Shown here piece by piece: positions 2,010-61,799 of a DNA stretch of 64,000 nt (the first letter of the stretch is position 1; the number at the start of each line of letters is the position of its first letter). The stretch lies in assembly GCA_036172665.1 (NCBI GenBank), contig CM069870.1:64666212-64730211 (forward strand), written 5' to 3'. A model generated the notes under the pieces. The model did not search any database, was not told the origin of the DNA, and saw only the letters and a program-made list of their open reading frames with translations. The position numbers were made by a program, and so were the translations under genes. This stretch comes from Prosopocoilus inquinatus (Eukaryota; Arthropoda; Insecta; Coleoptera; Lucanidae).

Positions 2010-3117
2010 ATGGAAGAAGCAAACGAAGGAATGGTTGACATTTCTATTAACTATAAAGGGATTGATTACAAATTAACTGTGGATGAGTTCACTGCAAATG
2101 AATTATTAAATGGTAAGTACTTATTATTTAAAGTGGATTTATATATTTTGCGTTGCCGTTAAAAACTATATTGTGAAGAGGTAGGATTGTTTATAAACTA
2201 TGAGCAGACAGCAACTGAGTTTTTAAACGATTCTACTGATCAAGAAAAGTTAACATTTGCCAGCAACTCCGACAGGGAGTTGCAAGGTCGGTCAGAGTTT
2301 ATAAAACTGGCTTTGTACTAAAATTAAACTCGGGACTAAATTCTCTTTTTAGACCCCCTTAAAGCCCAGCAATACGCTGAAGCTGTTTTTCAAGAACGTA
2401 AAAGTACTGACGTTAATACAAAGCAGAAAGTTTGGTTTTCAAAGGGCCGTCCAACGAAAGAAGACGATGAAGCCACAGCTTTACTGTTAAGTTTGCGGCA
2501 AAAATACTCTTCAAAATTTAACGACAAACAAACGACTTACAACACTTTGTGGAATCTTATTGCTAAAGAAATGGAGGAACGCTACGACTTGTGTCTCACA
2601 AAAAAAGAAGGATCGGCGGGTAAATGTAGACAAAAATTTGTCAACATGGAGCGGCAGTATATTGCACAAGTCTCACATTAGAGACGAACAGGCGAGGAAA
2701 AGAAAAACCCACTACCATTCTTCGATGAATTACATTCCATATTAGGTATGGAATTACATAAAACAAGATTTATATGTAGATTAAACTTTAAACATTTTAG
2801 GTAGTAAAGCGAAAGTATCACCAGAATTTTTACAAGATACTTCAGATGACACCGAAGCGTCTACTTCTGTTGGTAGTAGTGATAAGACTAATAAGAGCAT
2901 TACAAACAGATTCAGTAAATCCAAAATTACTGCACGGCCCAACAGCATAAGTGAATTAATGTTAAAAGAACTCCGAGAACAACACAGTCAAGACCGTGAA
3001 GAACGTACAAAACAATATACTGAAGTAAAAATGTTACTGGAAACGCAAAATGAACAAAGAAAACGAATGCTAGATTTATTTGCCGACCTAGTACAATGCA
3101 AAAGGCAGAAAATGTAA
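2010..3117 (+). pseudogene. Harbinger Myb/SANT-like DNA-binding protein, one stop
   Basis: A four-exon model fits the sequence: 2010-2112, 2185-2286, 2353-2745 and 2801-3117. Introns have GT-AG ends and phases match at every junction, giving 305 codons in total. Exon 3 carries a Myb/SANT-like domain (from the acidic TKEDDEATALL stretch through tryptophan in TLWNLIAKEM to KCRQKFVNMERQY), followed by the PFFDELHSIL segment that usually follows this domain in transposon-associated proteins. The C-terminal exon is charged (SELMLKELREQ) and probably helical. A single in-frame TAG at 2679-2681 interrupts an otherwise open frame. In PIF/Harbinger elements this second protein is known to bind the transposon ends and help import the transposase into the nucleus. 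It converges on the transposase gene, with 43 bp between the two stop codons. Confidence 0.8.
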
Positions 3118-3556
3118 TTATGTTATCCTTAGCCTTTCTTTTAGTTTTTTTTTTCGACAACTATGTTTCCAAATTTGCAGCGATTACAATTTCAACAGCC
3201 TTACTAACAGAGTAAGTATTTATATAAAGAAGTCGTCTCCTCCTTCCCTTCACAAGTCCAAACACATTTTCAATTACGACTCTGTCATGACTTAACCAAT
3301 TATTATGATATTTTTCCATTCTGTTCATATAATTATTACGTCGAAATGGAGTAATTAACCAGGTTCTTACAGGAAAAGCACTGTCGCCAACATAGGCGCC
3401 GAATTTTGCAAATATTGTTGGGTGCAATTTTTGTCTATAGTTCAGTTTATAATATGTATAATACATATAATTTATTCGCAAATGAAAAGTCCACTGCCGG
3501 TGTTGCCTTATGAAGAATACAACCGGCAACGGCATCCTCGTTAGAAACTCGATAAC

Positions 3557-3841
3557 AGGTGCTTTCTTTTGCATAAGAGTTTGAATCTGCTTTCGACTAG
3601 TTTGAATCTGGATTCTGTAGTTGTTGCAACAAACACCTTAGTTTTGAATTATTGATATGATAGTTCGCCTGCAAATAAATACAATTTAATCAAAACGAAA
3701 TATAAAAATAGTTTAATTCGAAGGGAAAAGGAAATTACCAATCTGAACTGAAATTTCAAGGAGAGTGGGGATTAATCTGTTTGCAAAAGAACGTCCGTCT
3801 TTGAATCTAAACGCGTTTGGATTACGTCAAAGAAAGCACCT
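3557..3841. mobile_element. MITE copy 1, AGGTGCTTTCTTT termini
   Basis: A 285-bp sequence begins AGGTGCTTTCTTT and ends AAAGAAAGCACCT, and is similar along its length to 3947-4237. It sits just upstream of the last exon of the Harbinger transposase (minus-strand sense), inside or next to its intron. No coding capacity is visible. Confidence 0.75.
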
Positions 3842-6931: not shown

Positions 6932-8863
6932 CAGCGCGGAAACTAAGTAGCGGATAAAATCCATAACTCCGTTAATATTTGTAATAAAGCAAAAATCTAA
7001 AAGGGGTATAGCGATTCAAATTACAGCGCATAAGAAGTATATTTTGAGATATTTTCATGAATTTTTTTTAAGTTATGACGTCATCAAGATTTTTTTAAAT
7101 GACAACCTATATTTTTTATTTTTTATTTCGGTGGGATTCTTTAACCTGCTTTCAACAGTATAAAATTTTGGATCGATTACATAACAAAAAATTCAAGAAA
7201 AACGGCCATAAAAGTTTAATTGTAAAGTTGAAGAAATAAACAGAACATCTAGTTAGCTAGGTTTAACACGAAACAAAATTAAGGTGTAAATAAACAAAAT
7301 TTGATTTTGACAGTCATTGAAATCACAATAAATGTTCAAACTGACGACCATGCACCAACTGACAATACCCAAGACGCTCATAAAATTCATTTATTACATT
7401 TTGAATAGTTTGAGGTGTTATTAACCTACATTCCTGTCAAATTCTTTCTTTAAGATCGGCTAAGTTGTTAGGTCTATTTTTATACACCTTGCTTTTTAAG
7501 TACCCCCATAGAAAAAAGTCTAATGGCGTTAGATCAGGGGATCTAGCTGGCCATTCCATTGGACCTCTTCTTCCTATCCATCTACCTGGGAACATCTCGT
7601 CCAAATAACGTCGCACATCAACTGCGTAGTGTGGCGGAGCACCGTCGTGTTGCATCCAAATGTTATTGTTTGGTACGTCACAGTCATTTTCATTAGGAAA
7701 TAATATCGCCAATACAGGTACTAATTCGAATTGTAAGAAGTGTAGATATTTCTCACCAGTTAAATTACCTTCGATAAAGAATGGACCTAAAATTCTGTCA
7801 CCGACAATTCCTGTCCATACGTTGAGCTTCTGGGGATGTTGAGTATGAGCTTCTTGCATCCAGTGGGGATTTTTCCTAGACCAATATCGACAATTATGTC
7901 TGTTAACAGTTCCATGTAAAGTAAAACTTGCCTCATCAGAAAAAATTATACGCTGCGAGAACATTGGATCACGATTGCAAATTTCCAACATTTCTTCACA
8001 AAATTCTTGTCTATGATCATAGTCAGTTTCTGCTAACTCATGGACTAATTTTACTTTATACGGATGAAACTTTTGCATTTTTAAAAGTTTCAGTACCGAG
8101 GTATGACTCAGGTTGTGCTCTAAAGCAATGTCTCGACTAGTCGAATGCGGATTATTTTCTATTTCTAGTAAAATATCAAGCTGCACATCGTCAATTAATT
8201 TTGTCTTAGGGTGGCCAGTTTTTGGAAGGTCTTTCACAATACCGTAATTTCGAAATTTATTTTCTATTCTGCTGACTGTGGATTGACTTATTTGCTGATC
8301 AGGATATTTGTCTATAAAAAGTCGACACACCTCTTGATGAGTTCTAATTCGATCGCCATACCCAATCATCATTAGAACTTCAATTCTTTGTTTTTCAGTC
8401 AGCAACACCATTTTGGTAAAAGGTTTTTAATAATTAGTGTAACTCCTACTATCCACAGGGAATAAAAATACTCACTTTATTGTGATAGGTATTTACAAGT
8501 TCTTGTCAATCAAACAAATTTTGTTTGTTTTACACCTAGCTAACTAGATATTCTGTTAATTTTTTCAACAATTAAACTTTTATGGCCGTTTTTCTTGAAT
8601 TTTTTGTTATGTAATCGATTCAAAATTTTATACTGTTGAAAGTAGGTTAAGAAAACCCACCGAAATCAAAAATAAAAAATATAGGTTGTCATTTAAAAAA
8701 AATCTTGATGACGTCATAACTTAAAAAAAATTCATGAAAATATCTCAAAATATACTTCTTCTTATGCGCTGTAATTTGAATCGCTATACCCCTTTTAGAT
8801 TTTTGCTTTATTACAAATATTAACGGAGTTATGGATTTTATCCGCTACTTAGTTTCCACGCTT
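6932..8863 (-). mobile_element. Complete DD41D mariner-like transposon
   Basis: A 1932-bp element begins CAGCGCGGAAAC and ends with the inverted GTTTCCACGCTT. TA target duplications are at 6930-6931 and 8864-8865. The inverted repeats are about 330 bp long (6932-7260 against 8530-8863), including ATGACGTCATCAAG and AAACGGCCATAAAAG blocks. A single transposase gene lies between them on the minus strand. It inserted into the N-terminal coding region of the Harbinger transposase and is therefore younger than that element. The long inverted repeats are nearly intact, so it could still be mobilised in trans. Confidence 0.92.
7323..8411 (-). pseudogene. DD41D transposase with one premature stop
   Basis: The frame opens at ATG 8411 and reads 324 residues to TGA at 7437-7439. 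It then stays open in the same frame for 37 more residues (QECRLITPQTIQ to RQFEHLL) to a second TGA at 7323-7325. The family C-terminus therefore continues through the first stop, and the gene is one nonsense mutation short of a 362-residue protein. An N-terminal helix-turn-helix (about residues 5-115) precedes the catalytic core. The acidic residues are D159 (IIFSDEASF), D256 (MQHDGAPPH) and D298 (LTPLDFFLW), with 41 residues between the last two, hence DD41D. WPARSPDLTPLDFFLW is the diagnostic block. The known reaction is cut-and-paste transposition into TA dinucleotides. Confidence 0.9.
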
Positions 8864-12264: not shown

Positions 12265-12493
12265 AAAGAAATTGGATTTAACCTCCTAACCACAAAAAGT
12301 TTGTTTAAAAGCTATATACGTATTTCGGCAGCTATGCTACCATCTTCAGTAGATACCTTCTTCATGATCACAAGAGAAGTCACTTCTCTTGCTGCCGAAA
12401 TACGTATCTAGTTTTTAAACAACCTTTTTGTGGTTAGGAGGTTAAATTCAATTTCTTTGTACTACAAACCACAGTCTCCAATACATTTTAATA
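12265..12493 (-). mobile_element. Penelope-like insert with 12-bp target duplication
   Basis: A 229-bp insert splits the right inverted repeat of the pogo remnant. Perfect direct repeats CGGATTAAAGAG flank it at 12253-12264 and 12494-12505. Its two halves form an inverted repeat (12265-12320 against 12410-12458) with CCTCCTAACCACAAAAAG in the arms. The TATTTCGGCAGC...ATCTTCAG pattern on the plus strand is typical of the termini of Penelope-like elements. Confidence 0.72.
12315..12349 (-). ncRNA. Hammerhead-like core, weak
   Basis: On the minus strand CTGAAGA (12343-12349) is followed by an imperfect stem II (GGTAGC/GCTGCC with one unpaired base), then GAA and the palindrome ATACGTAT. This matches the hammerhead order CUGANGA, stem II, GAA, stem III, UH, but stem I pairing is not evident. 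It may be a decayed or structurally unusual ribozyme. Confidence 0.4.
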
Positions 12494-12519: not shown

Positions 12520-13400
12520 AGAGTATCTGCGAATCAGTGATTTATATCACAGCCAACTAAGAAAAAAGATTCTGTGGCTCATACGATATATCCTTCACGA
12601 AAAGTTAAGCCTTCAATAGGTCAGTGATTTTCAAACAATTGCGGAGAAATTTAGAACTGCGATTTTTTTAAAAACTAAAAACTTTTTGTTAAGGATATAC
12701 AAGTTCAATCGTTTCCTTATATTACAGATTTTGAACTTTTGAGCTGTTTGTTTTGCTAAGTTAGTAATTTATCGCTGAGCTTAAGACTTAAACAAAACAT
12801 AACCTCGCTGCGTAGTCGCTTCCATTTACTTTCACTTATAAATTAAGAAATTACAAATGTTACATTCCAGACAAAAATCGGTAGAAATTAGATTTGTACT
12901 TCGAACTAATCACACGGATAGCCTTTCGGGGGTACAGTTGAAACATTGTAGGTTACTATACTATAGTGCGTTTCAACCTTAGTACGCAGTATGAGTATAT
13001 GCCTTTCTTTCTATCTTTCATAGTTTTTCAATAAAGCCATCTTTATCTCTCCAAATTCTCCATAAGGCGTGTACTGCTTTCGCACTAATAAAGCTAATCA
13101 TAATTGTGTTTCAATTTAATCTCGGCTGTGAAATCTCAACAACACGACGCTACAGAAAATAGTATATTTAGAATGTTGGTTGAGCGTTACTTATTCACTC
13201 GCTTCCATGATGTAAAATTTCTCCTTCCCCTGAAGGCAACTTGTATAACATGATACCTTCCTGGAATAATTTTATTCGGGAAAATATGTCTGTAGAACTA
13301 CAACGAAGAGCCGTGTTGCATGGAATTTATCGCTCATGCAGTCAAGGCGCACTTTTTTTTACAAGGGCAGTTAAAAAGAACGAGACGGATGGAGTTGCCA
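12520..13400. other. Non-coding DNA, no gene seen
   Basis: Unique AT-rich sequence leading into the tRNA array; no exon or repeat recognised. The last 80 bases already resemble the spacer of the tRNA units. Confidence 0.45.
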
Positions 13401-13412
13401 CAATGGAAAAAG

Positions 13413-13485
13413 TGGTTCTGCCCGGGATCGAACCGGGGACCTTCTGCGTGTGAAGCAGACGTGATAACCGCTACACTACAGAACC
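13413..13485 (-). tRNA. tRNA-Val (CAC), copy 1
   Basis: 73-nt cloverleaf: acceptor GGTTCTG/CAGAACC, anticodon stem TCTGC/GCAGA, loop TTCACAC giving anticodon CAC, T-arm CCCGG TTCGATC CCGGG, discriminator A. Internal promoter boxes A and B are intact. It has a CTTTTT terminator and looks functional. Confidence 0.93.
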
Positions 13486-13586
13486 GTGTTGCATTCAGTT
13501 TGAACCGCGCATGCAACCACGGCGCATTTTTTACAAGGGTAATTAAAAAGAAAGAGATGGATGGAAGTTATCACAACGGCTAAAAG

Positions 13587-13659
13587 TGGTTCTGCCCGGG
13601 ATCGAACCGGGGACCTTCTGCGTGTAAAGCAGACGTGATAACCGCTACACTACAGAACC
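13587..13659 (-). tRNA. tRNA-Val (TAC), copy 2
   Basis: Identical to copy 1 except for the anticodon loop, TTTACAC, giving anticodon TAC. All stems pair. A four-T terminator follows. Confidence 0.92.
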
Positions 13660-13760
13660 GTGTTGCATTCAATTTGAACCGCTTATACAACCACGGCGCA
13701 TTTTTTACGAGGGTAATTAAAAAGAAAGAGATGGACGGTAGTTACCACAATGGAAAAAAG

Positions 13761-13833
13761 TGGTTCTGCCCGGGATCGAACCGGGGACCTTCTGCGTGTA
13801 AAGCAGACGTGATAACCGCTACACTACAGAACC
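13761..13833 (-). tRNA. tRNA-Val (TAC), copy 3
   Basis: Same mature sequence as copy 2, all stems intact, longer T-run terminator (CTTTTTTCC). Confidence 0.92.
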
Positions 13834-13933
13834 GCGTTGCATTCAATTTGAATCGCGCATGCAACCACGGCCCATTTTTACAAGGGTAATTAAAAAGAAA
13901 GAGATGGATGGAAGTTATCACAACGGCTAAAAG

Positions 13934-14006
13934 TGGTTCTGCCCGGGATCGAACCGGGGACCTTCTGCGTGTAAAGCAGACGTGATAACCGCTACACTAC
14001 AGAACC
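13934..14006 (-). tRNA. tRNA-Val (TAC), copy 4
   Basis: Mature sequence and spacer match copy 2, consistent with duplication of the copy 2-3 dimer. Confidence 0.92.
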
Positions 14007-14107
14007 GTGTTGCATTCAATTTGAACCGCTTATACAACCACGGCGCATTTTTTACGAGGGTAATTAAAAAGAAAGAGATGGACGGTAGTTACCACAATGG
14101 AAAAAAG

Positions 14108-14180
14108 TGGTTCTGCCCGGGATCGAACCGGGGACCTTCTGCGTGTAAAGCAGACGTGATAACCGCTACACTACAGAACC
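14108..14180 (-). tRNA. tRNA-Val (TAC), copy 5
   Basis: Mature sequence and spacer match copy 3; second half of the duplicated dimer. Confidence 0.92.
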
Positions 14181-14280
14181 GCGTTGCATTCAATTTGAAT
14201 CGCGCATGCAACCACGGCCCATTTTTACGAGGGTAATTAAAAAGAAAGATATGGATGGAAGTTATCACAATGGATAAAAG

Positions 14281-14353
14281 TGGTTCTGCCCGGGATCGAA
14301 CCGGGGACCTTCTGCGTGTGAAGCAGACGTGATAACCGCTACACTACAGAACT
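14281..14353 (-). tRNA. tRNA-Val (CAC), copy 6, acceptor mismatch
   Basis: Anticodon CAC. The first base is A instead of G, giving an A-C mismatch at the top of the acceptor stem; otherwise intact. Function is uncertain. Confidence 0.8.
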
Positions 14354-14453
14354 GCGTTGCATTCAATTTGAATCGCGCATGCAACCACAGCCCATTTTTA
14401 CGAGGGTAATTAAAAAGAAAGAGATGGATGGAAGTTATCACAACGGCTAAAAG

Positions 14454-14526
14454 TAGTTCTGCCCGGGATCAAACCGGGGACCTTCTGCGTGTGAAGCAGA
14501 CGTGATAACCGCTACACTACAGAACC
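14454..14526 (-). tRNA. tRNA-Val (CAC), copy 7, probable pseudogene
   Basis: Anticodon CAC. The T-loop reads TTTGATC, losing the invariant C56 needed for B-box recognition and tertiary folding, and the acceptor has G1-U72. Likely decaying. Confidence 0.7.
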
Positions 14527-14626
14527 GCGTTGCATTCAATTTGAATCGCGCATGCAACCACGGCCCATTTTTACGAGGGTAATTAAAAAGAAAGAGATGG
14601 ATGGAAGTTATCACAACGGCTAAAAG

Positions 14627-14699
14627 TAGTTCTGCCCGGGATCAAACCGGGGACCTTCTGCGTGTAAAGCAGACGTGATAACCGCTACACTACAGAATC
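14627..14699 (-). tRNA. tRNA-Val (TAC), copy 8, probable pseudogene
   Basis: Anticodon TAC. It shares the C56-to-T change and position-72 change with copy 7 and also has G2 changed to A, so the acceptor stem is weakened. Confidence 0.68.
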
Positions 14700-14827
14700 G
14701 TGTTGCATACAATTTCAATGGCTTAAGCAATCACGGCAGTTTGAACCGCGCATGCAACCACGGCGCATTTTTTACGAGGGTACTTAAAAAGAAAGAGATG
14801 GATGGAAGTTATCACAATGGATAAAAG

Positions 14828-14900
14828 TGGTTCTGCCCGGGATCGAACCGGGGACCTTCTGCGTGTAAAGCAGACGTAATAACCGCTACACTACAGAACC
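14828..14900 (-). tRNA. tRNA-Val (TAC), copy 9
   Basis: Anticodon TAC, acceptor, anticodon and T stems intact. One D-stem base is changed (TTAC instead of TCAC), still pairing as G-U. Possibly functional. Confidence 0.82.
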
Positions 14901-15001
14901 GTGTTGCATTCAATTTGAACCGCTCATGCAACCACGGCGCATTTTTTATAGGAGTAATTAAAAAGAAAGAGATGGATGGAAGTTATCACAATTGATAAAA
15001 G

Positions 15002-15074
15002 TCGTTCTGCCTGGGATCGAACCGGGGACCTTCTGTGTGTAAAACAAACGTTATAACCGCTACACTACAGAACC
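15002..15074 (-). pseudogene. Degenerate tRNA-Val copy 10
   Basis: The acceptor 3' strand, anticodon stem (TTTGT/ACAGA) and T-stem all carry changes; position 72 no longer pairs. The anticodon loop still reads TTTACAC. Confidence 0.75.
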
Positions 15075-15205
15075 GCGTTGCATTCAATTTGAATCACGCA
15101 TGCCACCACGGCGCATTTTTTACGAGAGCAATTAAAAAGAAAGAGATGGATGGAAGTTATCACAATGGCTAAAAGTGGTTCTGAATGAAAGTCTGCATCA
15201 TGGAA

Positions 15206-21187: not shown

Positions 21188-23067
21188 GGGGACAGGTAAT
21201 GTCGCCACCAGTAAGTATTTTAATCCCTGGACCTATTTCTCTGATCTTAATCCTACGGGTAATTTCGCCACCATTATTTTCGATAAATTTTAATGAGGGT
21301 GCAAATGATTAAGGGGTAAACAACCAGGTACTTTTCTTGCATTGATTATTATTTGGTCAGTACTATATCATTAGTAGTTGAGTGAACATTCCAGTATGGA
21401 TTTTAAAATTATTACAAGTATTCGTGGCAAATCCATGTTAGTGGTTGACAATTATAAGTTTAGTTTCCACAAAAAAATTAAATCCACTACTGAAAGTTTG
21501 TGGAAGTGTTGCAATCGAACGTGCAAATGTACAGTTCATACACTGGGAGATATTACCAATACTGTGATAACAAAATCAAGCGGTGAACACAGTCATGATG
21601 CAAATTTAGTTGCTTTAAACCGACAAATTGTCAGTGCTTCATGTAAAAGAAAAGCGATTGAAGATTTGGTCGAAAAGCCTGCCAAAATTATAAGAAACCT
21701 ACTAAAGGAGAATTTGCCGCCAACAATAACCAGCGTGGACGTCGAATACCTAAGAAAAAATATGTATAACGCTCGCCGTAAATTTTTTCCACCTACCCCC
21801 AAAACTATTAGTGAAGTGCACCGTATTTTAAGTGATTTAAATGTTAAAACAGACAAAGGGGAATCGTTTTTATTCATGAACAACGATCGTGAAAATATTG
21901 TAGTTTTTTCATGTGAAACAAATATTCGTATTCTTCACACCGTAACACGGATTTATCTTGATGGTACTTTTGATTATTGTACGCAACACTTTTGTCAATT
22001 TTTCACCATCCACGGTGTCAAAAATGGACATTATATACCTCTTTTGTTTTGTTTATTACCCAACAAGCAAACAGAAACTTATAAAAAACTATTTCATTTA
22101 ATTGAAAATAAATGTAAAGTGTCATTAAATATACGGGAAGTAGTGATAGATTTTGAAAAAGCCATCCATAATGCAGTTGAAGAAACTTGGCCGAATGTGT
22201 GCATTATTGGTTGTCGATTTCATCTAAGTCAAGCATGGTACCGAAAAATACAAAAGTGCGGTTTAATCAAAGAATATAACGATAAATCCAGTTTAATTAG
22301 TCATTGGCTACGTGTAACGTTTGCATTAACTTATCTGAACCCTGCTGAAATTGGCGACTGTTTTGCAATGGATTTATTTGAAATTATGCCCAAAGATGGC
22401 AGAGTAGAAACATATGCAGATTATTTAGTTGATACCTACATATCGGAAAATTCACTTTTCCCACCAAAAATTTGGGCTGAAAATTCTGCATGCATTACAC
22501 GTACCACAAATGCATGTGAATCATTTCACCGCAATTTTAACGATTCTATGTACAAAGCACATCCTAATTTGTTTATATTTTTAGAAAAAATTAAAGAATT
22601 TCAAATAGATACTTATGTCAAAATACAAAGTCTACATTTGCTAGCAAAAATACATAGTAAACAAGTTAGAGAAAGGCAAAAAGTTATTGATAACATGATA
22701 CAACGATACAATACTAACGAAACAAGCAGATTGAATTTTTTAAAATGTGTATCTTTCCATTCTAGTCCAATGTAATAAGTTTTTTTAATGTGTATATATT
22801 ATGTGGATTGTAATCTTGTGTAGATATAAAATATAACCATTTTTTTCAATATATGTATTTGTTTTACGATGTCTATTTTTATTTTACTACCACTATTAAA
22901 ATACATATATTTATAACAAATTGCCTGGATTGTCGTCGTACAGATTAATTCTTAGAAGTGCGGTGGCGAAATTACCGGTAGGATTACCATGCCTTTAATC
23001 GTTGGTGGCGAATTTACCTGTACGATGATTGCATTGATGTGATTTGGTGGCGAAATTACCAACACCC
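21188..23067 (+). mobile_element. MULE (Mutator-like) transposon, apparently intact
   Basis: An 1880-bp element flanked by a perfect 8-bp direct repeat ATGAAAGG (21180-21187 and 23068-23075). Ends are imperfect inverted repeats, GGGGACAGGTAATGTCGCC at the left against GGGTGTTGGTAATTTCGCC at the right. Five copies of a 16-bp motif, GGTAATTTCGCCACCA, lie near the ends: 21195 and 21258 in plus sense; 22961, 23003 and 23045 in minus sense. They are probable transposase-binding sites. A single uninterrupted transposase gene fills the interior. Confidence 0.9.
21378..22775 (+). CDS. MULE transposase with FLYWCH-type zinc finger
   Basis: A 465-residue single-exon protein. Residues about 15-74 form a FLYWCH-like zinc-binding module (WKCCNRTCKC and EHSHD supply Cys and His). 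The MULE catalytic domain follows, with D195 (YLDGTFDY), D258 (VVIDFEKAI) and E381 (NACESFH), and the CxxH of GCRFHLSQAW (C279, H282) between the last two. All triad residues are present and the frame is unbroken. The ATG at 21378 is followed by a second at 21396; either could start. The known reaction is cut-and-paste transposition with 8-9 bp target duplications, which agrees with the flanks. The family is often fixed in insect genomes but this copy could still be active. Confidence 0.9.
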   Translation: MSEHSSMDFKIITSIRGKSMLVVDNYKFSFHKKIKSTTESLWKCCNRTCKCTVHTLGDITNTVITKSSGEHSHDANLVALNRQIVSASCKRKAIEDLVEKPAKIIRNLLKENLPPTITSVDVEYLRKNMYNARRKFFPPTPKTISEVHRILSDLNVKTDKGESFLFMNNDRENIVVFSCETNIRILHTVTRIYLDGTFDYCTQHFCQFFTIHGVKNGHYIPLLFCLLPNKQTETYKKLFHLIENKCKVSLNIREVVIDFEKAIHNAVEETWPNVCIIGCRFHLSQAWYRKIQKCGLIKEYNDKSSLISHWLRVTFALTYLNPAEIGDCFAMDLFEIMPKDGRVETYADYLVDTYISENSLFPPKIWAENSACITRTTNACESFHRNFNDSMYKAHPNLFIFLEKIKEFQIDTYVKIQSLHLLAKIHSKQVRERQKVIDNMIQRYNTNETSRLNFLKCVSFHSSPM

Positions 23068-31390: not shown

Positions 31391-31398
31391 AGTCTTTA

Positions 31399-31857
31399 CA
31401 GATAAAATAGCGACATCATACTATCGCTATTTGACCTAACATTGCAGTAGGGTAAACAAATTGAAGCGGGATTTGCTCCTAATAAGTCCCCCATGCAAGG
31501 CGGCCATGCTTGCTGTCAAAGCATAATGAAATTTATAGAAAAATTTTTGTGCAAATCGTTTTTGATTGCAGTGAAAACCTCGAGCAGCCTCTGGACAGCT
31601 GTTTCAGCCCTGCTTGTGGCTTCTTCAGCAGAGACGTAGCTCGACATTTCCACTGCAAACAAAAACGACTTGTCCAATTTATTCGCAATTACGATGTAAG
31701 AGTGATGAACAGATAAAATAGCGACATCTTACTATCGCCTTTTGACCTGACATTGCAGTAGGATAGACAAATTGAAGCGGGATTTGCTCCTAATAAGTCC
31801 CCCATGCAAGGCGGACATGCTTGCTATCAAAGCATAATGAAAATTTTTAGAAAAATT
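31399..31857 (-). mobile_element. Hammerhead retroelement copy A, 1.5 tandem monomers
   Basis: GATAAAATAGCGACATC at 31401 recurs at 31712, so the insertion contains about one and a half copies of a 311-bp monomer. The monomer holds, in plus order, CCCCCATGCAAGGCGG, GCATAATGAAA, GCAAATCGTTTTTGATTGC, the hammerhead (minus sense) and TCGCAATTACGATGTAAG. The right side abuts the 6.2-kb inverted repeat, and no target duplication is visible for this copy. Confidence 0.8.
31578..31644 (-). ncRNA. Type I hammerhead ribozyme, copy A
   Basis: Minus strand: stem I 5' arm TCGAGCTACGTCTCTG, core CTGAAGA, stem II AGCCA/GGGCT (one terminal mismatch), GAA, palindromic stem III ACAGCTGT, then C and the stem I 3' arm CAGAGGCTGCTCGA. 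Predicted cleavage falls between 31593 and 31594. All core bases are kept. Confidence 0.75.
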
Positions 31858-34786: not shown

Positions 34787-34796
34787 TCTTCAGCAG

Positions 34797-34862
34797 TCGA
34801 GCTACGTCTCTGCTGAAGAAGCCCCAAGTAGGGCTGAAACAGCTGTCCAGAGGCTGCTCGGG
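34797..34862 (+). ncRNA. Type I hammerhead ribozyme, copy B
   Basis: Core CTGAAGA (34813-34819), stem II AGCCC/GGGCT with loop CAAGTA, GAA (34836-34838), ACAGCTGT, C at 34847, then CAGAGGCTGCTCG. Stem I pairs GTCTCTG with CAGAGGC and CGAGC with GCTCG. It lies in the spacer between the inverted-repeat arms; the element continues to TTTTTCT near 34911 and is truncated at its 5' side. Confidence 0.8.
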
Positions 34863-34911
34863 GTTTTCACTGCAATCAAAAACGATTTGCACAAAATTTT
34901 TCTAATAATAA

Positions 34912-38574: not shown

Positions 38575-39021
38575 TTAAAATAAATTTTCAAAATGTTGTC
38601 CGTCAATTTTTTTACACCGGGCAACTCACTTTTTCATATTGTCGAACGCATTTTGCAATTTTTGAGGAGTAATTAAATTGCACGCTTCTGTAATTGCTTC
38701 TCTCAGGTCTTCCAATGTGTTACTGGCAAACAATGTATTTTTCAGAAATGGAAAAATAAAATAATCGATAGTTGTCAAATCTGGAGACCGGGCAGGAAAA
38801 TTCACATCGCGATTGTGAAAAAACTCCTGTATCAATTGAATGGTTTCCCTTGTGTGTGCATCATCCTGTTGAAAATACCCTCGTACCTGGCTTCCGAGTA
38901 AGAGCCATCGTCTCTCGATATTGTATACAACCAGGAATCGAATAGCTCCATGTGCCATTTTCTTGTTTCTGTGCATTTTTGAAATAACTTTCAGTGAGAA
39001 AAATGTTATGTCGAATATCAA
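38575..39021 (-). pseudogene. DD41D-group transposase C-terminal fragment
   Basis: Encodes GYFQQDDAHTRETIQ, NFPARSPDLTTIDYFIFPFL and LEDLREAITEAC. After an in-frame TGA near 38626 comes a short tail (KKIDGQHFENLF) to TAA at 38575-38577. The block order is that of the two DD41D elements in this window, with residues lost between the second and third catalytic aspartates. No terminal repeats are seen. Confidence 0.75.
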
Positions 39022-39166
39022 ACATTTTCGAAACTAAATGTCATTATGACACTTAAAATCTTTAATTTCAAACTGCAAGCCTGGGTTGCCAACTTATGAT
39101 AAATACCACAGCCTGCTCTAATTATAAATTCTAAAGTTGAGCAATTTTTTATACACTATCATTAAT

Positions 39167-39235
39167 AGAAAAATTTTGTGGAAATCGTTTTTGATTGCAG
39201 TGAAAACCTCGAGCAGCCTCTGTACAGCTGTTCAT
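39167..39235 (-). mobile_element. Hammerhead retroelement copy C, 69-bp truncated
   Basis: Perfect 13-bp direct repeats CACTATCATTAAT at 39154-39166 and 39236-39248. In minus sense it starts within stem III (GAACAGCTGTACAGAGGC), continues through the stem I 3' arm and ends GAAATCG...CACAAAATTTTTCT. It is thus 5' truncated with a clean 3' end, and the ribozyme core is lost. Confidence 0.82.
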
Positions 39236-42684: not shown

Positions 42685-42945
42685 TACGTTCAATGCAAAA
42701 CGACGTAAGCGACATTTTCTATGAAATTGGAAATTTACCGTTAAACGACAGCGCTAAACGCAAAAATTAATATGAATTTTACCATTTGAGTGTCAAATAA
42801 ATAGTAATTTAGTTATTTATATCCGAATGATTTGCGTCTCTTTTTTGTTTTTAGTTTTAAATATTTTAATGGCTGTTTTTCCCAATATTTCTTGTTTGAA
42901 GCTTATTAGAATAGTAAAAAGACAAGCACTAACATTAATGCATTA

Positions 42946-43426
42946 AGAAAATTTGTTGCAAATCGTTTTGATTGCAGTGGATGCCTCGAACATCCTCTGT
43001 ACTCGGCAGAAGCGTAGCTCGAGAGTTCCACTTCAAAGCAAAGCGACTTGTCCAAGGATATTCGCAATTGCTGTGTAATAGTAATGATTAACTTAAATAG
43101 CGACATCCTGCGATCGCTTTTAGACCTGACATTTGCGAATATCCTTGGACAAGTCGTTTTGGTTTGCGGTGGAACTCTCGAGCTTCGCTTGTGCTGATGA
43201 ACCTCTAAATAAGGCTGAAACAGCTGTACAGAGGATGCTTGACGGATTCACTGCAATCAAAAACGAATTGCGACAATTTTTTTCAATATTTTCATTATGC
43301 CTTGACAGCAAGCACGGCCGGCTTGCATGGAATGACTTATTATGTAACAAACTGGCTTCAATTCGTCAATGATAATGCAACGTCACTTCAAAAAGCAAAC
43401 GTAGGATGTCGCAATTTAAACTATTA
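42946..43426. mobile_element. Hammerhead retroelement copies D/E, head-to-head
   Basis: Perfect direct repeats ATTAATGCATTA flank it at 42934-42945 and 43427-43438. The left half (to about 43129) is in minus sense and has lost the ribozyme core; the right half is in plus sense with a core. The two halves meet at TTTGCGAATATCCTTGGAC. It is more diverged than the 31, 51 and 61 kb copies. Confidence 0.8.
43176..43244 (+). ncRNA. Hammerhead-like ribozyme, copy E
   Basis: Core CTGATGA (43194-43200), an imperfect stem II (ACCT/AGGCT), GAA (43217-43219), ACAGCTGT (43220-43227), A at the cleavage position, then CAGAGGATGC. Core bases are conserved, while stems I and II carry mismatches. Confidence 0.55.
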
Positions 43427-43801
43427 ATTAATGCATTAGGTAACCAGTTATGTCAAATTTCATCAAAAACCAAATGTGTCAAAAATAGTTTTTCCCTATT
43501 TCTAAACAATTGAGTCAAAAGAGCTTACGTCATTTTGCCTTAAACTTCGTAGTCTAGAATGACAAGCTGCGGTTATTCGAACTTCAACCTTTAGTACGTG
43601 CAGTGCCGTGGTCAGCGATATTGGAATTGCTGCCTGTAGCACCGCTGCTTAATATAGTTCTCATGCTCAGTAAAAAATTAAAAATAAAATAAAAGTAAAA
43701 CATAGAACTATTTATTTTCTCGGCCAAGTCGGGTTTTAAAGTCCATAAATCTTTTTCAACTTCAGAAATTACAATTTTGTGTTTTTTGATTAAATCTTCT
43801 A

Positions 43802-50580: not shown

Positions 50581-50688
50581 CTCATAGATAAATTATATAA
50601 AAACTAATAATAATATAAATTAAAACTCAAATAAAGTTAAATGTTTTTAGAAAAATTTTGTGCAAATCGTTTTTGATTGCAGTGAGAA

Positions 50689-50755
50689 CCTCGAGCAGCC
50701 TCTGGACAGCTGTTTCAGCCCTGCTTGGGGCTTCTTCAGCAGAAACGTAGCTCGA
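50689..50755 (-). ncRNA. Type I hammerhead ribozyme, copy F
   Basis: Minus strand, same structure as copy G: CTGAAGA, AGCCC/GGGCT, GAA, ACAGCTGT, C. Cleavage between 50704 and 50705. Confidence 0.8.
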
Positions 50756-50975
50756 CATTCCCACTGCAGACCAAAAACGACTTGCCCAATTTATTCGCAA
50801 TTGCGATGTAAGAATGATGAACATATAAAATAGCGACATCTTACTATCGCTTTTTGTCAAAAATCGCTTTTTGTCAAAAAGCGATAGTAAGATGTCGCTA
50901 TTTTATATGTTCATCATTCTTACATCGCAATTGCGAATAAATTGGGCAAGTCGTTTTTGGTCTGCAGTGGGAATG

Positions 50976-51042
50976 TCGAGCTACGTTTCTGCTGAAGAAG
51001 CCCCAAGCAGGGCTGAAACAGCTGTCCAGAGGCTGCTCGAGG
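50976..51042 (+). ncRNA. Type I hammerhead ribozyme, copy G (reference)
   Basis: Stem I distal TCGAGC/GCTCGA (6 bp), internal loop UAC opposite U, stem I proximal GTTTCTG/CAGAGGC (7 bp, two G-U). Core CTGAAGA 50992-50998. Stem II AGCCC (50999-51003) and GGGCT (51010-51014) with loop CAAGCA. GAA 51015-51017. Self-complementary stem III ACAGCTGT 51018-51025. Cleavage follows C51026. Every universally conserved hammerhead base is present. Very short palindromic stem III helices are known from Penelope-like and retrozyme hammerheads, which act well as dimers. Confidence 0.83.
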
Positions 51043-51234
51043 TTCTCACTGCAATCAAAAACGATTTGCACAAAATTTTTCTAAAATCTTTCATTATGCT
51101 TTGACAGCAAGCATGGCCGCCTTGCATGGGGGACTCATTAGGAGCAAATCCCGCTGCAATTTGTCTATCCTACTGCAATGTTAGGTCAAAAAGCGATAGT
51201 AAGATGTCGCTATTTTATATGTTTAAATGTTTTT

Positions 51235-54486: not shown

Positions 54487-56907
54487 CCGGCTGTCTTACG
54501 AAAAACGCACCACGCTATAGCTCTGTTATTAATAATCGGATTTTAATAATTCAAAAACTACGTAAGACCATTTTATAAATACTACAAAACAGTAACATTT
54601 CAATATTTTTTTAATTTGTAATTTTTCCCAAGCGATAGTCAACTATTTTTTTTTAAATAGCACCACATATTTTTTTTATTCAGTTCGATAGAGAATCTTT
54701 TTCTGAATTCAACAATGTACTCAACTTGATTTTTTAGTATCCTACAGCGAAATAATTTCGTTGTTAAAATAAAAATGAAGTGTGCGTTGAAATCCTATAA
54801 AAGCGCACTTGCAGCTATCCGTGTTCCCCTGACTTCGACTTTTGGTTATGGAGCTATGTTCCTACTCAAATTGCCCTAAGTTAAAATGTTCTTCATTTAT
54901 GATTTTTTTAATATGATTTATTTTTTTCAAATGAAACACGTATTTTTTGTCTTTCAGTTTGACTGGGAATATATTTTCATGAATTCTACGATCTATTTTA
55001 ACCTGACTTTTAAAACTATTATAGCAAAATAATTACTTTTTTTAATAAAAATGAAACAAGCCATGGAATCCTATGACAGCGCACAAAACACTAAATGTCA
55101 TTGAACACTTAAGTATTTAACTTGCCACATCGTTTTTTCTTATTGTTACTTTATTTATTGTTATTTGTTGTCTTTTGTTATTATTGTATTATACTGTTAT
55201 TTTATTATGGATAACAATCAGCTAACTGATATGCTGCAAGTGTATTTTGAGTGCCATAAAAATTCTGGTCAAGCAGAGCATCTGTACGCAATTCGTTTTC
55301 CTATTAGAGAAGTTCCTGGCCGTCAGAAGTTTAGAAGACTTGAACAAAATTTAAGAAATCACGGCGCTTTTAAGAAATCTAAGAAGCAACAACGCTAGTT
55401 TCGTGAAAATGTAGAATTAGATGTCTTGCTTAGTGTTCAAGAAAATCCAAGAACTTCAACAAGAGAAATCGCACACAACAACCATTTATCAAAGGATACT
55501 GTCCATAAGATCTTAAAAAAAAAATAAATTTACGCCTTATATCCCACAGAAAGTACAAGCGTTGTATGAAAATGACCCAAATCGCCGCCAACAATTTTGT
55601 ATTTTTTATTTAAATATGTTACGCCAAAATGGACTTTTTTACAGAAATATTATTTGGTCGGATGAAAGCACTTTTAGTAATAATGGCATTTTCAACAGAA
55701 ATAATCAACGTTACTGGAGTCAACATAACCCAAGAGTTACAGTTGAAACTAATCGACAACATAGATTCTCTCTAAATGTATGGTGTGGTATTTCAGGTGA
55801 TAGATTGATTGGGCCCTTTTTCATCAATGGCACCCTAGATCAGAATAAATATCACCAGCTGCTAACTAACAATTTGGACAACTTTTTGGATGAATTACCT
55901 CTCGCAGAATTAAATAGACTGTATTTTCAACAGGATGGTGCCATTCCACATAATGCCAGGCAAAATTTTAACTGGTTGAATGAAAAATTTGGCCAAAAAT
56001 GGATCGGGACATACGGCCCAGTTAGGTGGCCTGCGCGTTCTCCTGATATGACACCGCTAGATTTTTGGTTATGGAGTTATATTCAAGACCACGTCTACTT
56101 AACACCGCCAGAAAACGAGCAAGTTTTAAGGGGGAGAATTCTTCGCACTTGTCACGAGATACCCCCCAATTTAATATTAAATGCAGTGCATGGGGTAACT
56201 AAGAGGTGTCAGCTATATATTAAGCAAAATGGGGGACATTTTGAACAATATTTATAATTAACTAATTATTTGTATTTTGTTATACTGTTTTAGTATGTAA
56301 TAAAATTTTGCATTGTTTTATGTTCCAACGAACACTTCATTTTTATTTAAGAAGCGAAACTATTTCTCTATAGTACTACAGAAAATCAAGTTGAATACAT
56401 CGTTGAATTCAGAAAAAAAATATAGTAAAAAAAATTGAGAAAGCAGCAATTAATTGGATTTTAGGGCGTAGAAACTAATTTCAAATCATTCATGATAAAT
56501 GAAGAACATTTTAACTTAGGCCGATTTAAGTAGGAACACAGCTCCTTAAGTAAAAGTCGAGGTTAGGCGAACACAGATAGGTGCAACGTGCGCTTTTATA
56601 GGATTTCAACGCACACTTCATTTTTATTTTAACAACGAAATTATTTCGCTATAGGATACTAAAACATCAAGTTGAATAGATTGTTGAATTCAGAAAAAGA
56701 TTCTCTATCGAACTGAATAAAAAAAATGTAGTGCTATTAAAAAAAAAATAGTTGACTATCGCTTGGGAAAAATTACAAATTAAAAAAATATTGAAATGTT
56801 ACTGTTTTGTAGTATTTATAAACTAGTCTTACGTAGTTTTTGAATTACTAAAATCGGAGTGTTAATAACAGAGTTATAGCGTGGTGCGTTTTTCATAAGA
56901 CAGCCGG
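54487..56907 (+). mobile_element. Second DD41D mariner-like element
   Basis: A 2421-bp element starts CCGGCTGTCTTACGAAAAAC and ends with its inverse. TA target duplications lie at 54485-54486 and 56908-56909, within TATA on each side. Inverted repeats are unusually long, about 590 bp each with gaps. One transposase gene lies between them on the plus strand. Confidence 0.9.
55207..56257 (+). pseudogene. DD41D transposase, stop plus frameshift
   Basis: ATG 55207 (MDNNQLTDMLQVYF) reads to TAG at 55396-55398. The frame continues to a poly-A frameshift near 55523, then runs open from 55562 to 56257. Catalytic blocks are IIWSDESTF, YFQQDGAIPH and WPARSPDMTPLDFWLW; the last two aspartates are 41 residues apart. 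It ends GGHFEQYL. It is in the same group as 7323-8411 but clearly a different subfamily. Confidence 0.9.
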
Positions 56908-57739: not shown

Positions 57740-58380
57740 TTGCTTACGTTTTTAAATTAGTATATGATCGACCTGCGCGTGAAAACTCATATATGGTGAT
57801 GTCCAGGTGATTTTATGCAGCCTTGGATGCTCATATCTAGTACTGCCAATTATCATGTTTGGTTTTGCAGCAAGGTTGCGTAGCCTTTGTCTATTATTGT
57901 TCGTCTTTTCATGAATTGTATGTTTTCCAGCTACCTTCTTCACGAACTCTTCCTCTCCTACCTGCGCATTAAAGTCTCCTAATAGCAAAAGTGTGTCCTC
58001 TTTTGGTATTGCTTCAATTTCCTCTTCTAACGATTCGTAAAATTTGTCTTTTATTTCTTCTGATGCGCTTTCAGTGGGCGCATAAACATTCAAAATGGAC
58101 AACTTGAAGGGGGCTGTTTCTAGCCCAACATACGCAAGCCTTTCATTTATAGGTTTAAATACTATCACCTTTTCCTTTAGTTTGCTTAAAATCATAAATG
58201 CCACCCCATGTTGCCCTTGCTTCTCGTTTCCTGAATATAAAACTGCAAAATCTTCTTTATCTATCCGCCCCTGCCCTTTCCATCGAATTTATCTATTTTA
58301 TACTTATTCAATTCTGATCTTACTTCCTGCATTTTTCCTGCCGTTAACATTGTTCTTACGTTCCACGTGCTAACTTTAAT
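57740..58380 (-). pseudogene. LINE ORF2, AP endonuclease domain
   Basis: WNVRTMLTAGKMQEV opens the domain. A deletion and frameshift remove the QE motif region. The frame then reads LNVYAPTESASEE, LLLLGDFNAQVG, HPRLHKITWTSP and FHAQVDHILI. GDFNAQVG and the final Asp-His are catalytic blocks of exonuclease-endonuclease-phosphatase enzymes, which nick target DNA to prime reverse transcription. The linker continues at about 57740 with DVRSFRGACADTDHFMVAA. Confidence 0.85.
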
Positions 58381-58525
58381 TTTATCATTATTTTTATTCT
58401 TCTTATTTTTTGCATCCTCTCTTTATGTTATTTCCTATGTCATGTTTTTTTATTGTTTATTGATATATCATGTCCTTTTTCTTGCCAAGTCTTTTCCGTT
58501 AATTCGCGCTCTACGTATCCATTCG

Positions 58526-59274
58526 CTAGTTTTTTGCTTGTTCTTTCTCTAATTTACCTAATACATCATTCCATACCATTACACTTCCTTCTACAATCAG
58601 TTTCATATGTCCAAATTTGACTGATTTTCCTTTTTCTTTGAATGCCTTTGCGGCTGCTCTGATTTTTTTGTGTATCTTTCTCTCATACGGCGTTAAGTCA
58701 CTGTCAATGTACACACTTTTAACTTTCAATTTGTTCTTGCTCTTGAGTATTTCTAGTTTTTCTTCAAATGTTTCCATCTTTGCCACCTCCATTTTCTTTG
58801 CAATTATCTTTACCTCTTTAATTTTCTTACTTATTCCCTGCTCTTTGTTTATCCGCTCATCTATCTGGTTTTTTGAATCCCTATTTCTTTCATCTAAAAC
58901 TATTCCTGAGAACACGAGGTTATTTTTTCGTTTTTCCTTTTCCATATTTTCCACTTTCCTCTCCAGTTCCTTAATTTTATTCTCCACTTCCTCATATTTT
59001 TGTTCCCATTTATAGTTTGATTTCTTTATTTCCTCTCTGAGTGCTTTCATCTCGTTATTGTTTACCTCTATTTTTTCTTTCTTTTCATCTTGGTCCTTTC
59101 TGATTCCCTTTATTTCCTCCAGCATCTGTTTACATATTTCCCTGACGTCTAAGCTATCACTGCTTATATTTGTTTTTGGAGGCGTCTTAAAATCTTTTTA
59201 CTTTTCTGAAAAGTTTCGTAACCTATACCTTTTCTCTTTTTGGTATCAGACAACGTATCTTCGGAGTACGACAT
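58526..59274 (-). pseudogene. LINE ORF1, coiled-coil RNA-binding protein
   Basis: ATG at 59274 (MSYSEDTLSDTKKRK) leads into the main frame after a frameshift near 59198 (TPPKTNISSDSL). The main frame has a long coiled coil (KIKELERKVENMEKEKRKNN) followed by the NNLVFSGI motif that starts the RRM-like domain of L1-type ORF1 proteins, and a basic C-terminal domain (TPYERKIHKKIR). The known role is binding LINE RNA in the ribonucleoprotein. Confidence 0.8.
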
Positions 59275-60980: not shown

Positions 60981-61298
60981 CGTCCTAATACTAAGGGGAC
61001 TGAATTCTTTTCCCTGACAATAATATCTGGTCGATGATTGCAACGAGTTTTCAAACCCACACGTTCAATTCCAAACGTTTTCTGCGTTTCGTTGTAAGGT
61101 TAATTCCATTTCCCTTAACTTCAGAAATTCTTCTTATTACTGGAGAGCCCCGTCCTCCTCAACAGAAAAAACAACACCAGAATGAAAGGAATTAATATAG
61201 CTACACACTAAGCACATTTTCCAACGTTTTTAAATTAAAAAAAAAATAGTTGACACTTGTTCAATTTTAATATCGTCCGGTTAAAGGTTAAGAACTAC

Positions 61299-61743
61299 GA
61301 ACATATAAAATAGCGACATCTTAGTATCGCTTTTTGACCTAACATTGCAGTAGGATAGACAAATTGAAGCGGGATTTGCTCCTAATGAGTCCCCCATGCA
61401 AGGCGGCCATGCTTGCTGTCAAAGCATAATGAAAGATTTTAGAAAAATTTTGTGCAAATCGTTTTTGATTGCACAAAATTTTTCTAAAATCTTTCATTAT
61501 GCTTTGACAGCAAGCATGGCCGCCTGCAATGTTAGGTCAAAAAGCGATAGTAAGATGTCGCTATTTTATATGTTCATCTTTCTTACATCGCATTTGCGAA
61601 TAAATTGGGCAAGTCGTTTTTGGTCTGCAGTGGGAATGTCGAGCTACGTTTCTGCTGAAGAAGCCCCAAGCAGGGCTGAAACAGCTGTCCAGAGGCTGCT
61701 CGAGGTTCTCACTGGAATCAAAAACGATTTGCACAAAATTTTT
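61299..61743. mobile_element. Hammerhead retroelement copy H, head-to-head
   Basis: Perfect 12-bp direct repeats GTTAAGAACTAC flank it (61287-61298 and 61744-61755). The left half is in minus sense and the right half in plus sense, meeting near 61470 at GATTGCACAAAATTTTTCT. A short deletion in the right half removes the ATGGGGGACTC region. Confidence 0.87.
61639..61705 (+). ncRNA. Type I hammerhead ribozyme, copy H
   Basis: Identical in sequence to copy G: TCGAGCTACGTTTCTG, CTGAAGA at 61655-61661, AGCCC/GGGCT, GAA, ACAGCTGT, C, then CAGAGGCTGCTCGAGG. Confidence 0.82.
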
Positions 61744-61799
61744 GTTAAGAACTACCTTCTTAAAAATGTTTTTAATGAAAGTTTTATTCATTTTTTTTT

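Follow-up and report, generated by a model that had tools for sequence, protein, structure and literature searches.

The window analysed in this study was the whole stretch of 64,000 nucleotides from Prosopocoilus inquinatus (GCA_036172665.1, contig CM069870.1, positions 64,666,212 to 64,730,211). A type I hammerhead ribozyme lies on its plus strand at 50976..51042, within a 312-bp repeat unit that is present there as a foldback. The parts of the ribozyme are as follows:

50976..51042, plus strand: type I hammerhead ribozyme, with cleavage expected between 51026 and 51027 (monomer nt 154/155)
50976-50981/51035-51040, plus strand: outer stem I, 6 bp, read from the letters
Between outer and inner stem I: internal loop UAC/U
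50985-50991/51027-51033, plus strand: inner stem I, 7 bp
50992-50998, plus strand: core CUGAAGA, from the letters
Plus strand: stem II, 5 bp, with loop CAAGCA
51015-51017, plus strand: core GAA, from the letters
51018-51025, plus strand: stem III stretch ACAGCUGU
C51026, plus strand: cleavage base, with the predicted cut directly after it

The letters contain the type I features, with the core CUGANGA ... GAA ... NUH, three helices, and an open stem I. An earlier note on this DNA had described a stem I of 7 proximal and 6 distal pairs around an asymmetric loop and a stem II of 5 bp, all of which match the letters. The stem III of that note is present, and its extent was corrected to 2 bp with a palindromic AGCU tetraloop. 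A palindromic stem III/loop III, which could pair as a dimer, is likewise described for an Aedes aegypti hammerhead (PMC3088659).

The core pattern CTGAAGA-N(5-30)-GAAACAGCTGTC was matched five times in the window and never in any of 100 dinucleotide shuffles, which bore out the complete hammerhead with exact core claimed in the earlier note. The matches are:

31594-31628, minus strand
34813-34847, plus strand
50705-50739, minus strand
50992-51026, plus strand
61655-61689, plus strand

All five hammerhead places named in the note were thus recovered; a sixth, diverged copy with an intact strict core at 43178-43249 (+) had been missed. The other copies were said to have the same structure with substitutions outside the core. 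The structure was found in them; the substitutions were absent from the copies at 50689 (-) and 61639, which were identical to the 50976 copy over monomer nt 100-174.

No hammerhead in the window was reported by Rfam at gathering scores. In a lax search with 141 bases, RF00163 aligned from end to end with 23.8 bits (E 5.6e-4), under the gathering score of 34. The covariance-model check proposed in the earlier note was therefore positive in the full-length alignment and negative at the cut-off across the window. Elsewhere in the genome, 74 of 83,220 candidates were scored, and 7 of the 8 listed RF00163 matches exceeded 34, the best with 42.6 bits. Hammerheads of diverged sequence, scoring above or close to the Rfam cut-off, were observed in L001, L002, L004, L005 (1497-1544), and L007, and probably represent older or sister retrozyme families. 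Matches of miRNA models to the foldbacks were rejected as artefacts of long hairpins, all being under their gathering scores. The fold energy of the hammerhead had a z of -3.1, equalled by 1 of 200 shuffles. Energy alone does not establish the hammerhead fold, because some core bases have other partners in the predicted minimum-energy structure.

Conservation of the ribozyme was investigated over monomer nt 100-174 in 66 copies, of which one from a duplicate locus was dropped, leaving 65. Several copies derive from one insertion, so the copies are not independent. In 57 of the 65, none of the 11 strict core bases was changed and the cleavage base was an allowed one. The earlier note had taken a core that mutates as freely as its surroundings as evidence against a hammerhead. 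Strict-core substitutions were rarer than those elsewhere in near copies (1/539 versus 42/3005, p 0.016) and in diverged copies (8/176 versus 89/945, p 0.040), both p values ignoring shared descent. Nine substitutions were common to at least three copies, and none fell within the strict core. Stem I held three of them, loop II two, and loop I one; two more changed the free N of CUGANGA, and the last replaced C by A at the cleavage base. Two of the stem I changes convert U-G to C-G; the third (nt 167) disrupts an outer pair. Loop I kept UAC in 56 of 65 copies and U in all 65, and loop II was CAAGCA in 51 of 65. This substitution pattern may be taken as modest evidence of past selection on the ribozyme.

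The carrier of the hammerhead is a unit of 312 bp with a GC content of 0.436, spread through the genome, in agreement with the dispersed insect repeat proposed in the earlier note; the 312-bp period was found again in locus L003. The longest stop-to-stop frame in three joined monomer copies, with both strands considered, was 103 codons, so protein coding in the unit was not found, and neither was a reading frame for reverse transcriptase (RT) or GIY-YIG nuclease. A Penelope-like element was rejected on the lack of such a frame, the resemblance being limited to the insertions. Satellite DNA was also rejected, as no array exceeded about 2.8 monomers in the examined loci; units sometimes stand head-to-tail, and the longest one-directional run was 835 bp with an adjoining 41 bp (L032). 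On the window, TRF listed no tandem repeat of 312-bp period. Folded as a circle, the monomer had an energy of -110.7 kcal/mol, compared with -75.7 (sd 4.9) for 100 shuffles, and the share of paired bases was 0.61, equal to that of the shuffles. In this very stable circle fold, a stem reaching from about nt 70 to 202 bears the ribozyme at its end.

The number of insertions was 4 in ten 10-kb genome stretches, 3 in ten beside the window, and 6 in the window. The ten genome stretches were taken at round coordinates, with two adjacent pairs among them. Extrapolation of 4 per 100 kb over 650 Mb gave an estimate of ~26,000 insertions, with a Poisson range of roughly 7,000-66,000; the unit is a dispersed repeat in perhaps 10^4 copies.

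The element is a metazoan non-LTR retrozyme, a known kind, and the family itself is new; the lead of the earlier note to retrozymes and Penelope-like elements was correct. Insects are named among the carriers of such retrozymes (PMC7229834). As in those described, there is one type I hammerhead per non-coding monomer (312 bp here, 150-450 bp there), GC is below 45%, target duplications exceed 4 bp, and Penelope elements are co-resident (PMC7229834). The described retrozymes are tandem, from dimers to large multimers (PMC7229834), whereas this family is dispersed, mostly foldback, and has two paired 3' ends. The pDo500 repeat of Dolichopoda cave crickets is also an insect hammerhead repeat, but a satellite DNA family; unlike it, the retrozyme is dispersed with target duplications (PMC2837043, PMC2808323). 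No description of this family or of two-site foldback retrozymes was found in the open-access literature searched.

Insertions were described by the sense 3' ends that face outward. Two sites were defined, with intervals chosen post hoc: site A at nt 28-52 (near nt 39) and site B at nt 200-226 (near nt 211). The retrozyme pieces in the window are:

50873..51184, plus strand: 312-bp retrozyme monomer, the numbering reference; 51185-51223 repeats 50873-50911
50873..51223, plus strand: foldback sense arm, 3' end at site A (nt 39)
50645..50856, minus strand: inverted arm of the same foldback, ending 3' at site B (nt 214) and carrying a second hammerhead
50637..50648: left target duplication TTAAATGTTTTT, overlapping the element by a few bases
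51223..51234: right target duplication TTAAATGTTTTT
61289..61473, minus strand: inverted arm of a second foldback, site A (nominal nt 50, the last bases matching the flank)
61469..61748, plus strand: sense arm of the second foldback, ending 3' at site B and containing the hammerhead 61639-61705
61287..61298: left target duplication GTTAAGAACTAC
61744..61755: right target duplication GTTAAGAACTAC
31398..31857, minus strand: one-sided insertion of about 1.5 monomers with one hammerhead, site A; a duplication was sought and none found
34796..34905, plus strand: one-sided insertion with the hammerhead 34797-34862, site B; a duplication was sought and none found
39166..39232, minus strand: short piece without a full hammerhead, site B, with a 14-bp shared flank CACTATCATTAATA
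42943..43130, minus strand: inverted arm of a diverged foldback, ending 3' at site B and lacking a full hammerhead
43130..43428, plus strand: sense arm of the diverged foldback with the hammerhead 43178-43249, site A, with shared flank ATTAATGCATTA

The region 50645-51086 is self-complementary at 99%. A transcript of the 50976 copy is predicted to form one ~200-bp hairpin that buries the ribozyme with its antisense copy, and this copy may be inactive in its own transcript. Release of a monomer from this locus is unlikely because it has one ribozyme per direction. Most insertions are shorter foldbacks, and several loci have 2-3 hammerheads in one direction; the latter (L029-L032 among others) are better candidate sources.

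Other mobile and host features occur in the window. Ten tRNA genes form a tandem array of about 173-bp units at 13307-15183 (-). A 465-aa frame with MULE transposase and FLYWCH domains lies at 21378-22775 (+). Tc1/mariner-like frames were found at 7437-8426 (-), 38626-39033 (-), and 55517-56257 (+); among them only 7437-8426 had Pfam matches, to HTH domains, one at the cut-off and the others below it. A Myb/SANT-like frame at 2340-2681 (+) and a DDE_Tnp_4 frame at 3161-3637 (-) were read as a Harbinger-like pair. Two LINE-like frames without a Pfam match lie at 57752-59197 (-).

The insertion ends were investigated by a genome search with the window monomer. A total of 120 pieces came from 40 scored candidates of 56 and were grouped into 40 places; 39 were fetched (L029-L067), the fortieth lying in the window. 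Ends were taken from the fetched sequence; search pieces ending at nt 50 reflect clipping by the search. Together with earlier loci, 66 clusters were obtained. Of the 64 of at least 50 bp, 11 were cut by the locus end, 2 were duplicates, and 51 were whole, a sample biased to long, well-matching copies.

The outer sense 3' ends were concentrated at the two sites, with 45 at A and 40 at B (85 of 94). The nine others were at nt 8, 156, 176, 188, 198, 279, 284, 284, and 300; the two at nt 284 are in L036 (740) and L045 (401). The 51 whole insertions consisted of 33 head-to-head foldbacks, with 3' ends outward, and 18 one-sided insertions. The foldbacks were 18 A/B, 11 B/A, 1 A/A, and 0 B/B, and three had one untyped end (L035, L036, L066). 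Unlike ends, one A and one B, were found in 29 of the 30 fully typed foldbacks, where 50% is expected if the ends were independent and equally used (p 3e-8). The exception, L042, is part of a larger palindrome whose mirrored halves extend into the flanks; for this reason it was attributed to later palindrome formation or an error of assembly, and it was kept in the counts. A further A/B insertion with a 13-bp duplication was seen by eye in L069, which was fetched for a Penelope domain and stands outside the counts. At L056 (241-1216), short pieces alternate in a ladder, with starts at nt 213 and 218, as if produced by repeated template switching.

An exact string of at least 9 bp was found near both junctions in 24 of the 29 A/B foldbacks, compared with 22 of 812 mispaired flanks. 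Its length was mostly 13 (ten foldbacks) or 12 (five); the five foldbacks below 9 had 7, 5, 5, 0, and 0, and a few of the 9-14-bp strings are of low complexity. The AT content was 0.80 for sixteen retrozyme duplications, 0.72 for eleven Penelope ones, and 0.66 for the window. Among 32 two-piece foldbacks, the arms overlapped at the inner junction by at least one base in 22, to which chance extension of the alignment may add a base or two, abutted in 4, and left a gap in 6. Only 2 of 116 sense 5' ends fell at nt 152-158, about the number for an even spread, and copies run through the cleavage site. Site B lies just 3' of the long ribozyme-bearing stem, and site A ~12 nt 3' of a small hairpin.

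A GIY-YIG search of the genome, in which 150 of 2232 candidates were scored, gave Penelope-like open frames of up to 788 aa among the scored matches. Locus L068 has a 369-aa frame with a GIY-YIG domain and, seen by eye, a YVDD motif. The homologues carry RT, GIY-YIG, and PF26215 (120 of 236 listed). The best were up to 60% identical, and the top named ones were beetle proteins (Molorchus minor, Aromia moschata, and Tribolium castaneum; about 47-50%), which makes a beetle host probable. Of 48 neighbouring GIY-YIG pairs within 12 kb, 47 were head-to-head, 1 was same-strand, and 0 were tail-to-tail. A second Penelope family (L070, L072, L073) has in L072 a GIY-YIG domain and RVT_1 below the cut-off; the end counts come from the other family.

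Ends were read for 12 Penelope foldbacks. Two, L074 and L075, were selected because they span little; the other ten are pairs on C3-C5 picked in the order of the list, with their ends unseen at selection. In all 12, one end was at ...CTCACTATTTA(TTT) and the other had an extra 35-38 bases, so each foldback joined an end without the tail to one that has it. The longest string common to both end stretches was 11-15 bp and lay at the junctions in 10 of 10, counted without a shuffle control. Both Penelope 3' sites also closely follow hairpins. Hammerhead-like cores lie just inside the Penelope ends by pattern, and were not reported by Rfam.

The retrozyme and the resident Penelope elements have start sites alike in position, not in sequence. 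BLAST gave no useful match between the retrozyme and the examined Penelope family. An alignment of the whole regions was equalled by 136 of 300 shuffles; for a short 3' stretch, the corresponding numbers out of 2000 were 6 for one copy and 78 for a second. These shuffle-tested alignments give no support to an origin of the retrozyme in the terminal repeat of that Penelope family, and no retrozyme-Penelope hybrid insertion was found in the loci in hand. In the window, a 42-bp stretch at 12308-12349 is 83% like part of the Penelope terminal region.

The insertions resemble published Penelope/Poseidon elements in their head-to-head copies, two alternative 3' ends, AT-rich targets, and a hammerhead core near the end; those elements encode RT and GIY-YIG, whereas the retrozyme encodes nothing evident (PMC3846280, PMC11167929). 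Duplications are 8-10 bp in several rotifer Penelope copies (PMC3846280) and 12-13 bp in the retrozyme. The published Penelope tail is optional at one inverted end (PMC3846280), whereas a strict one-of-each pairing was seen here. Purified Penelope protein cuts and extends both strands, starting at two internal RNA sites (PMC11167929). The start sites in that assay were the same for top and bottom strands, so it neither shows nor excludes A/B pairing (PMC11167929). The describers of metazoan retrozymes regarded Penelope as a strong mobiliser candidate, on the basis of shared type I hammerheads, tandem copies, and genomes (PMC7229834).

The results suggested, with a probability of roughly 0.7, that a Penelope-type enzyme primes from both strands of the target, starting at two fixed sites on retrozyme RNA that is circular or uncut. 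Penelope machinery is indicated because the retrozyme shows foldbacks, two fixed starts with one per side, and 12-13 bp duplications. Cut linear monomers are not the template, because 5' ends are not piled at the cleavage site and copies run through it. The template would be a circle or an uncut multimer, because a cut monomer would have nt 155 first and nt 154 last. A more specific form, in which one RNA circle offers two stem-adjacent RT landing sites and a paired Penelope enzyme primes both nicked strands at once, is tentative, at slightly less than even odds. In the proposed pathway, loci with at least two monomers in one direction would be transcribed, hammerheads would cut the RNA into 312-nt monomers, and a host ligase would close these into circles. 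A Penelope-type RT with GIY-YIG nuclease would then nick both target strands ~12-13 bp apart, and priming would occur from both nicks, one at site A and the other at site B. Each cDNA would be extended along the circle, in some cases for more than one turn, before the two are joined head-to-head. This would leave a foldback that ends at A on one side and at B on the other, flanked by a 12-13 bp duplication.

The strongest alternative concerns the ribozyme, which might be dispensable for spread: uncut multimeric transcripts would serve as templates, with the hammerhead a passenger or acting elsewhere. The lack of enrichment of ends at the cleavage site agrees with this, as do the weak stem III and the shared nt 167 substitution, and hammerhead mutants of an Anolis Penelope left in vitro insertion unaffected (PMC11167929). 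However, none of the shared substitutions falls in the strict core, changes there are less frequent than elsewhere, and similarly built animal retrozymes do cut and form circles (PMC7229834). A dispensable ribozyme was considered unlikely.

The products of twin priming in LINE target-primed reverse transcription are inverted head-to-head, with duplicated targets and inner junctions that vary. A LINE that moves the retrozyme, with foldbacks as twin-priming by-products, would likewise account for the inversions and duplications here, and the window contains the LINE-like frames at 57752-59197. By-products of this kind do not fit a second start that is fixed at A or B and not scattered, nor the same paired-end scar on the Penelope elements of the genome, and mobilisation by a LINE was considered improbable. 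Formation of the foldbacks by self-priming (snap-back) of one cDNA, such as is proposed on an antisense template for rotifer Penelope elements (PMC3846280), or by later inverted DNA duplication would suit the palindromic L042 and the L056 ladder but predicts like ends, which are unlike in 29 of 30 typed retrozyme and 12 of 12 Penelope foldbacks, and the two arms are usually unequal in extent, so that it has very little probability.

Priming by a Penelope-type enzyme at two fixed sites therefore remains the preferred reading, and the two-site insertion rule looks new, going beyond the open-access literature found. The fixed paired starts and matching duplications make Penelope mobilisation of retrozymes directly testable with one protein and one 312-nt RNA. 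If the reading is true, a single mechanism would have left both the A/B pairing of the retrozyme and the tail/no-tail pairing of the Penelope elements, and would account for the movement of animal retrozymes and for the optional Penelope tail.
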